Assembly: GCF_000016165.1 (NCBI RefSeq)
Contig: NC_009253.1
Coordinates: 3,421,484 to 3,485,483 of the forward strand
Source of the DNA: Desulforamulus reducens MI-1
Lineage (GTDB): Bacteria; Bacillota; Desulfotomaculia; Desulfotomaculales; Desulfotomaculaceae
Length of the DNA stretch: 64,000 nucleotides
Reading direction: 5' to 3'
Shown here: positions 30,172 to 53,893 of the stretch, piece after piece
Layout of the letters: each line of letters starts with the position of its first letter
Numbering within the stretch: position 1 is the stretch's first letter
Position numbers and translations under genes: made by a program
The notes under the pieces: generated by a model
The model's database searches: none
Told to the model about the DNA's origin: nothing
What the model saw: the letters and a program-made list of their open reading frames with translations, nothing else

Positions 30172-30270
30172 CAGGTATTTCTTTGGGGTCGGCTTTGGGC
30201 TTTGAGCTTTGAGCCGTGGGGTCTATCCCTCAAGCTCAAGGCTCATGGCTCACAGCCAACCCCAAAATTT
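30172..30270. repeat. Composite repeat arranged as a large imperfect hairpin
   Basis: The left arm (TTTGGGGTCGGCTTTGGGC, TTTGAGCTTTGAGCCGTGGG) and right arm (CTCAAGGCTCATGGCTCACAG, CCAACCCCAAAA) are imperfect inverted copies of about 38 bases each. The words match modules at 6936-7101 and 8089-8556. It lies between rpmE and the structured plus-strand leader. Confidence 0.65.
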
Positions 30271-30339
30271 TTTCCCAAAAGCATAAATTTATTATTTCCA
30301 AAAAAAGGAATACAGAAACGTGCGTCGTATTACTTGTAT

Positions 30340-30460
30340 AAATACCAAATATTGGTATTTACGGTCCTGTACAACCGCCTATGTATGCGGGGATGTGACA
30401 TCCCTCCGCCGGGAGTAATTACTCCATCACACGGCATTAGAGAATTCAGTTTACAGGACC
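30340..30460 (+). ncRNA. Candidate structured leader RNA (multi-stem)
   Basis: A 9-bp hairpin (AAATACCAA/TTGGTATTT, loop ATA, 30340-30360) is followed by a closing stem GGTCCTGTA (30363-30371) with TACAGGACC (30452-30460). Inside are CCGC/GCGG (30375-30390), GGGATG/CATCCC with a TGA loop (30390-30404, sharing one base with the previous stem), and GCCG/CGGC enclosing the palindrome GGAGTAATTACTCC (30408-30435). The element ends 61 bases before a 112-codon ORF. No known riboswitch was recognised. The fold is from eye only. Confidence 0.45.
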
Positions 30461-30521
30461 TCACAACTAAATATGATTGGTCCTTTGACACAGTACCTGC
30501 ATGTTGAGGGAGGCGATTTCG

Positions 30522-30860
30522 ATGTGTTTAATTAAGCATTTGCCTAAACAACTCAGGAACAGGATATCTTGGCCCTCAGGCTCACCCAGCAGACTGTTTC
30601 AAGAAGAGGAGGTGCAATCACCACCAGATGCCGGACGGCCAAAGTTAAAAAAAGTCTCCGCACAGATTGGTGGGGCCACAGTATCACAAGCTGCCCCAGG
30701 TGAATTTTTAAGTCCACCAGGTGGGCCTGTACAGAACTTTAATCCCTCCCTGTCAGGGGACCCGGGCATTCCCAGGCCGCCAACAAGGGAAGAACTCATT
30801 TCTCTATTGAAAGGATGTGATGCTTTCAGTGGTCCTAGAAACCACTGCTCCAAAAAGTAA
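30522..30860 (+). CDS. Possible small protein of unknown function, proline/serine-rich
   Basis: I do not recognise this 112-residue product. The ATG at 30522 follows GGGAGGCGATTTCG, a good ribosome site. The N-terminus is basic (MCLIKHLPKQLRNRIS), the middle Pro/Gly/Ser-rich (SPPDAGRPKL, LSPPGGPVQN), and the end is TREELISLLKGCDAFSGPRNHCSKK, a possible short helix with two Cys. No membrane segment or signal peptide. A structured leader lies upstream and a hairpin with a T-run at 30887-30913, so it looks like a complete transcription unit. It could still be a chance frame; the reverse strand carries a similar-length frame. Confidence 0.4.
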   Translation: MCLIKHLPKQLRNRISWPSGSPSRLFQEEEVQSPPDAGRPKLKKVSAQIGGATVSQAAPGEFLSPPGGPVQNFNPSLSGDPGIPRPPTREELISLLKGCDAFSGPRNHCSKK

Positions 30861-30886
30861 TTTTGCTCACCCCTCTTTATACAAGC

Positions 30887-30913
30887 AAATTCCCAAAGGG
30901 GAAATTTTCTTAT
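30887..30913 (+). terminator. Possible terminator of the 112-aa ORF unit
   Basis: AAATTCCC and GGGGAAATTT pair with a bulge around an AAA loop, followed by TTCTTATAGCTTTT. The stem is short, so the call is moderate. Confidence 0.45.
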
Positions 30914-31217
30914 AGCTTTTGAGATCCTTTCCTTTCTTTTAAAGTTTCTTTAAGCATAGATTTACTGGCACTGCATAACCCAAGTAGCCAAGTCACGGGT
31001 TTTATTGCAGTACCTCATTGTTAAGAAACCCCAGGTGCAGAGACGTCGTTCCCAATGAAAAACATAAGGCTAAGTCCTTTACTCCCTATTTTCTACAGCG
31101 CATGGTGCGGCATGCTTATTTAAAGAGCAACCCCACAGCGAAGATTTTTATTTATATGAAAGATTGATGGGAAACCTTTGGAAGGGCGTTACGGAAAATT
31201 GAATAGAGAAAATAAAC
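30914..31217. other. Gene-free region with a strong hairpin
   Basis: No credible ORF on either strand. GGCACTGCA (30967-30975) pairs with TGCAGTACC (31006-31014) with one mismatch, continued inward by AACCC/GGGTT. A GCATG/CATGC hairpin lies near 31101-31115. The region ends at the terminator at 31221. It may hold a small RNA on the plus strand. Confidence 0.4.
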
Positions 31218-31218
31218 T

Positions 31219-31247
31219 ACCCCCATCCATTGATGGGGGCTTCTTTT
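31219..31247. terminator. Strong terminator before the LysM/M23 gene end
   Basis: CCCCCATC-CATT-GATGGGGG, an 8-bp GC-rich stem. The better T-run (CTTCTTTTT) is on the plus side; the minus side has a weaker tail. It may serve both a plus-strand transcript and the minus-strand peptidase gene. Confidence 0.8.
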
Positions 31248-53644: not shown

Positions 53645-53893
53645 ACAAAAAACTCCGTCCCTCAGAAGGGACGGAGTTAATTCCGTGGTACCACCCTAAT
53701 TGGCTACCTCACATTTCGCAGGGTAACCCACTCGGCCTTCGATAACGGTGAAGCTAACCGGCTAAGCTTACTTGGATTTCAGCTTGCTCTCCGGGGTGGC
53801 CCAGTAGTCTCATTGGCCGGGCTTACACCTACCCCAGCTCGCTGCGCAATTAACGCTACCTTCTTCCCCATCATTGATTTATCATATGTTTGT
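53645..53893 (-). ncRNA. T-box riboswitch leader
   Basis: The T-box sequence GGGTGGTACCACGG (about 53683-53697) and a terminator with an 11-bp stem AACTCCGTCCC plus T6 (53645-53678) are unmistakable. Stem I features are visible upstream on the RNA: GATGGGGAAGAAGG, CAGCGAGC and GGTGTAAGCCC. The specifier should lie within 53793-53807 (CTACTGGGCCACCCC on the RNA); I could not fix the codon by eye (UGG, GCC or an upstream ACU are possible). Uncharged tRNA would antiterminate and switch on the Lrp-family gene and the aminotransferase. Confidence 0.93.

Follow-up and report, generated by a model that had tools for sequence, protein, structure and literature searches.

The window analysed, a stretch of 64,000 nucleotides from Desulforamulus reducens MI-1 (contig NC_009253.1, positions 3,421,484 to 3,485,483), carries on its plus strand a small open reading frame (ORF) flanked by two RNA domains. 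In all nine genomes of the genus Desulforamulus this unit sits between rpmE and a facing gene with an M23-type peptidase motif at the end of its product, the names of both neighbours being assigned by eye. An earlier note, made from the letters of the window, had proposed that a structured leader and a small-protein gene together form a unit on the plus strand, and such a unit is supported by its occurrence in 9/9 genomes, by covariation in the closing stem of the leader, and by the ratio of substitution rates (pN/pS) in the ORF. The features, in window coordinates, are as follows.

30298..30330, plus strand: promoter-like element, CCAWAAAAAGG, 17 nt, CGTA[TA]; same sequence and spacing in 9/9 genus genomes.
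30339..30361, plus strand: P0, perfect inverted repeat or 5' hairpin, TAAATACCAA-ATA-TTGGTATTTA; two-sided changes, pairing in 92.8% of cells.
30363..30460, plus strand: 5' RNA domain, P1 enclosing P2, P3 and P4; fold, P1/P2 covariation, model R1.
30363-30371/30452-30460, plus strand: P1, 9-bp closing stem; covariation.
30387-30392/30403-30409, plus strand: P3, GCGG-GG/CC-U-CCGC; comparative alignment.
30411-30415/30421-30425, plus strand: P4, GGAG/CTCC; comparative alignment.
30481..30511, plus strand: P6 hairpin over the ribosome-binding site, TCCTTTGACA / TGTTGAGGGA; helix possible in 9/9.
30507..30513, plus strand: Shine-Dalgarno sequence AGGGAGG, 8 nt before the ATG; invariant in 9/9.
30522..30860, plus strand: small-protein ORF of 112 aa (ATG 30522, stop 30858-30860); orthologs in 9/9, pN/pS, alignment.
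30971..31010, plus strand: T0 hairpin with conserved loop AGCCAAGT; loop invariant in 10/10 rows.
31033..31206, plus strand: 3' RNA domain, closed by GACGTC (31042-31047) / GGCGTT (31185-31190); model R2, covariation.
31220..31247, plus strand: intrinsic terminator of the unit; found in this genome, and by pattern in the other eight genus genomes and the sister-genus contig.

The ORF is found in all nine Desulforamulus genomes by protein and profile searches, and the leader RNA is recovered in the same nine, all of which are also matched by its covariance model, R1. The complete genome of D. reducens (3,608,104 bases) has one copy of the unit. In a scan of 113 genomes of the order, the leader model matched ten genomes at E ≤ 0.1 (nine of the genus and one weak match), the protein profile matched nine at 0.01, and the model of the 3' domain, R2, matched twelve at 0.1 (nine of the genus, one strong match in a sister genus within the family, and two weak matches). 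In a draw of 398 genomes from the phylum, matches are found only in four Desulforamulus genomes; the draw included just four of the nine, and all four were recovered. Since scoring with the RNA models was capped, under strict filters, at 25 candidates per genome in the order and 7 in the phylum, diverged copies could be missed in these scans. The sister-genus contig stops 85 nt upstream of its 3'-domain match, just before the ORF would start, and searches with the leader model and the protein profile find neither leader nor ORF in the rest of that genome, which is 70% complete. Outside the genus, the rpmE locus was examined with the models in 21 of the 96 genomes having an rpmE match. In one of these 21, a genome of another family (G036, L067), the M23 peptidase faces rpmE with roughly 0.9 kb between them, and the unit is absent from this spacer.

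Several isolated matches were judged to be due to chance: one of R1 in G085 (E = 0.053), where no matching ORF was seen when the sequence was read; those of R2 in G088 (0.031), G091 (0.022) and L074 (0.17); a protein match in G040 (E = 0.0015) that is missing from the profile search; and a pattern match in a gammaproteobacterial MAG, the sequence of which was inspected. The unit is real, conserved, narrow in distribution, and uncatalogued in the libraries searched.

The ORF is open in all nine genomes and encodes 54-112 aa. The protein has a conserved N-terminal motif, WPxGxPSRLxxEE, and a conserved C-terminal motif, GDPGxPRPPTxxxLIxLLKGC; the middle, rich in Pro, Gly and Ser, is deletable and is missing in three species. 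The pN/pS pooled over species pairs is 0.53 in the ORF frame; the other five frames give 0.98, 1.06, 0.68, 1.19, and 1.26. By part, the ratio is lowest in the C-terminal motif (0.26), with 0.56 in the N-terminal motif and 0.60 in the middle. On these substitution patterns the ORF is a protein gene under purifying selection, and is so in its own frame only; the ORF of the earlier note is thus real.

AlphaFold2, run with the nine sequences, gives a mean pLDDT of 61, a pTM of 0.20, and a single helix of some confidence (89-102), the shallow alignment limiting the prediction. The small protein is accordingly predicted to be mostly unstructured. It resembles a flexible tether that carries a pair of short binding motifs, one of them (the second) being the helix, and such a protein would probably act by binding a partner. 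No family was found for it in Pfam or NCBIfam (five of the nine orthologs run), and no family match in the PDB. Two PHROG matches (0.12 and 0.18) and a PADLOC JetB match in two of the nine members (best 0.0089) were judged to be chance. The protein is therefore as unrecognisable as had been claimed, there being nothing credible in Pfam, NCBIfam, PHROGs or the PDB, and the same is true of the RNA: the unit has no match in Rfam 15, the eight relatives give only sub-threshold noise, and the leader thus matches no riboswitch class described there.

Upstream of the gene, the earlier note had folded by eye about 120 bases into a hairpin and a closed multi-stem domain, and sequence and folding confirm this: the 102-nt domain has a folding energy of -37.1 kcal/mol and a z of -3.5 against 200 shuffles. 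The 9-bp closing stem and the 14-base palindrome (30412-30425) are present as described. Inner stems also exist, but those in the lowest-energy fold of this single sequence (CCGC/GCGG and GGGATG/CATCCC) differ from the stems that the species have in common, which are P2, P3, and P4. The z is -2.9 for the 211-nt leader, and for a slightly longer stretch it is -2.0 in this genome with a mean of only -1.2 over the nine species. Folding energy alone is therefore weak evidence, and the case rests on comparison.

The comparison is most informative for P1. In the sequence-only alignment, two-sided changes occur in four of its seven pairs with 95.8% of cells paired, and in the model-fitted alignment in five of seven with 96.4% paired. 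Covarying pairs in the closing stem, which had been set in advance as the supporting observation, are thus present in four to five of the seven. The whole leader structure beats at least 496 of 500 shuffles in percentage paired, two-sided pairs, two-sided cells, and covariation score, and the same four measures exceed all slid controls; a fifth, further pair types, is unexceptional, being reached by 54-103 of 500 shuffles. P2 covaries but pairs in just 53-70% of cells, one reason being that it sits at different positions in different species. P3 and P4 hardly vary and hence have no covariation support; they are consistent with the structure, unproven. P5 shows no two-sided changes. The core of the leader is nearly invariant, including single-stranded and junction positions (CGGGGANGNG..ATNCCNCCGCCGGGAG). 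On the alignment, the 5' leader contains a conserved, covarying aptamer-like domain, which is one feature expected of a riboswitch; the leader may be riboswitch-like, as the earlier note had suggested. The hairpin P0, with 10-bp arms (30339-30348/30352-30361), shows two-sided changes in two of eight pairs, and its excess over shuffles is modest (pair count reached by 25 of 500, covariation score by 50 of 500). P0 could alternatively be a DNA operator.

Between this domain and the gene lies the good ribosome site already seen in the earlier note, AGGGAGG, which does not vary among the nine genomes. In each of the nine, a perfect helix of 5-11 bp overlapping this site can form (P6), and its pairs show one-sided changes only. 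P6 is not consistently favoured when the whole unit is folded by partition function: its strand makes up most of the partners listed for the ribosome site in one of the nine genomes. A conserved alternative pairing able to make a switch was found neither in the pairing ranks nor by reading the alignment of the nine genomes. The strand of P3 that is a candidate anti-ribosome-site reads CCUCC in seven genomes and CCCCC in two. Competition of the P1 3' strand with ACCUGC of the P6 loop was rejected: one species has lost the loop, and in this genome P1 is changed without it. A pairing of the ribosome site with the 5' strand of the closing stem of the 3' domain, an idea that arose from the resemblance of GGGAGGCGAUU to GGGACGGCGUU, was dropped, its ranks being 0-106 of 657-871 windows in the nine genomes.

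The promoter-like element precedes P0 in every genome of the genus. According to passages of PMC10575876, the -35 region of SigI promoters contains an A-tract and their -10 region contains CGWA. Both strings are present in the element, but its A-tract continues into GG. The genome encodes one RsgI_N protein. The genome's own sigI-rsgI locus lacks the pair of strings, and genome-wide there is no enrichment of the element: with two mismatches or fewer allowed, it has 13 matches and the reversed control 23. The strings thus suggest a SigI promoter, a reading unsupported by the sigI-rsgI locus or by enrichment. The RsgI_N protein, at G000:C1:2525759-2525872 (L100), adjoins a 250-aa SigI-like ORF identified by eye.

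Just upstream of the promoter-like element, at 30182-30266, is an imperfect inverted repeat with 33-nt arms (82%). Its hairpin has a z of -8.3 here and of -7.5 and -3.8 in two other species, and is not strong in the remaining six. It looks like a dispersed palindromic repeat; its left end is present once in the window.

Downstream of the ORF, an unconserved spacer of 66-137 nt leads to T0. The segment identities are 0.62 for the leader, 0.62 for T0, 0.54 for the ORF and 0.53 for the 3' domain, against 0.23 both in this spacer and in the stretch preceding the promoter. The outer stem of T0 is made of complementary letters that differ by species (CTGCAT/ATGCAG, TGTACC/GGTACA, GCTGC/GCAGC, and GCCGGG/CCCGGC). 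R2 finds the 3' domain in the nine genus genomes and the sister genus. Its closing stem is paired in all cells, with one-sided changes only, while two-sided changes occur in its second helix and in the apical one. The number of two-sided cells, 17, is reached by none of 500 shuffles, and that of two-sided pairs, 8, by 55-74 of 500. In the whole-unit folding, the closing stem has a probability of at least 0.5 in four of the nine genomes.

A terminator-like hairpin at 30890-30903 had been taken as the 3' end of the unit. This does not hold: by the same criterion it has a counterpart in none of the eight other genus genomes (1/9 in all), and the conserved end is the terminator at 31220-31247, which follows the 3' domain in 10/10. 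This terminator is also terminator-like on the minus strand, where it would serve the facing gene. In eight of the nine genus genomes there is no terminator between the ORF and T0. Upstream of T0, the alignment has no conserved promoter-like block, and this genome has no consensus promoter there.

This comparison of sequences shows the closing stem of the leader and the protein gene, as well as the 3' domain, the terminator and a promoter-like element fixed in sequence and spacing. The explanation favoured, tentatively and at somewhat less than an even chance, is that of a lineage-restricted single-copy small-protein gene on a transcript of about 0.9 kb, the leader of which gates translation through the hairpin over the ribosome site. 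The order of the unit would be promoter, 5' hairpin, 5' domain (P1-P4), P6, small-protein gene, 3' domain, and terminator, with all parts on one transcript; as the promoter-like element stands before P0 in 9/9 and none stands before T0, we infer a single transcript as the simplest reading. The leader would be a cis-acting control element binding a metabolite, a protein or an RNA, and the state of the P1-P4 domain would decide whether P6 stays closed, hiding the ribosome site, or opens, allowing the small protein to be made. The 3' domain would be the 3' untranslated region of the same mRNA, protecting or localising it. Translational gating is argued against by the inconsistency of P6 and of the closing stem of the 3' domain in the whole-unit folds, by the absence of a conserved alternative pairing, and by the lack of two-sided changes in P3, P4, and P6 in the alignments. 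The leader fold is also not unusually stable in most species, and the measure of further pair types is unexceptional.

This gating reading has its nearest likeness in the orphan riboswitch candidates, which share with the unit a compact multi-stem leader whose core does not vary and which stands immediately ahead of a ribosome site that a hairpin is able to sequester. The unit differs in that its gene is of unknown function, that it occurs in one bacterial family, that a second structured domain follows the gene, and that it is without a conserved alternative pairing. To our knowledge, the arrangement RNA domain-gene-RNA domain is unusual among known regulated small-protein genes. In the literature no paper naming the gene or the RNA was found, which is a weak negative; the listed passages of PMC4759654 and PMC4137172 in which Dred_31 tags occur concern other matters.

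The main rival, unlikely but carrying most of the weight among the alternatives, is a dual-function RNA, in which both RNA domains act in trans, by mRNA pairing or protein assembly, and the ORF adds a small protein. SgrS, RNAIII and SR1 are dual-function RNAs, and the unit resembles this class in combining RNA structure with the coding of a small protein. It differs in the size of its ORF (54-112 aa) and in having conserved RNA domains on both flanks. The two RNA domains are conserved at least as well as the protein gene, the T0 loop is conserved and unpaired, and the protein is short and quick to lose its middle, all of which favour this rival. However, the ORF occupies a third of the unit and is longer than the 29 aa given for VcdP of the dual-function RNA VcdRP in passages of PMC8672173, and the leader runs straight into the ribosome site, which fits a role in cis. 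Gating and dual function both predict a transcript and a peptide, and differ on whether the RNA domains matter once the protein is supplied separately.

Large non-coding RNAs offer further likenesses. OLE is described in passages of PMC12054373 as non-coding and about 600 nt long. As far as those passages go, OLE-type large ornate RNAs are, like the unit, large, structured, long-conserved, and found in anaerobic Bacillota, while the unit, unlike OLE, encodes a protein and is matched by no Rfam model. The 3' domain is a long rod, closed and interrupted by internal bulges, and in this it is like 6S RNA. Identity with the latter was rejected, as the window has no RF00013 match and the genome's two 6S RNAs, both above the Rfam cut-off, lie elsewhere (G000:C1:811548-811737 and 1397655-1397839).

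It is rather improbable that the unit is instead two neighbours, a small-protein gene controlled by its leader and, apart from it, a small RNA (30971-31206) that has a promoter to itself. The spacer between them, unconserved at 0.23 identity, would fit such a division, as would the 3' domain of the sister genus, though the contig there ends before the ORF would begin; against it stand the lack of a conserved promoter-like block upstream of T0 and, in eight of nine genomes, of a terminator between ORF and T0. Less probable still are ordinary structured untranslated regions, in which the hairpins merely stabilise the mRNA of the small protein and there is neither switching nor RNA function. The absence of two-sided changes in P6 and P5 is what would be expected from this, and with the promoter-like element just before P0 the transcript could begin with P0; yet the unpaired leader positions and those of the T0 loop are nearly invariant, beyond the needs of stability. 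We give little credence to a self-contained ribonucleoprotein, in which the RNA domains at the two ends would meet and be bound by the small protein, the RNA being message, scaffold, and regulator at once. The decayed mobile element or phage remnant suggested in the earlier note is highly improbable and unsupported, as nothing beyond the unrecognised protein and RNA speaks for it, while the pattern is vertical with identical neighbours at the same locus in 9/9 genus genomes, the genome holds a single copy, and searches of plasmids, phages, and viral contigs yielded no relative.

With the unit come two RNA domains and one small-protein family that are lacking from the curated libraries searched. 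All nine species of a single genus have kept it, and none of the other families sampled has it, which makes it a compact case for the origin of lineage-specific RNA regulators. Strains like D. reducens are the subject of metal-reduction studies, and a new regulator in them would be open to RNA-seq and reporter testing. Elsewhere in the window, a T-box leader is present on the minus strand at 53664-53883 (109.3 bits).
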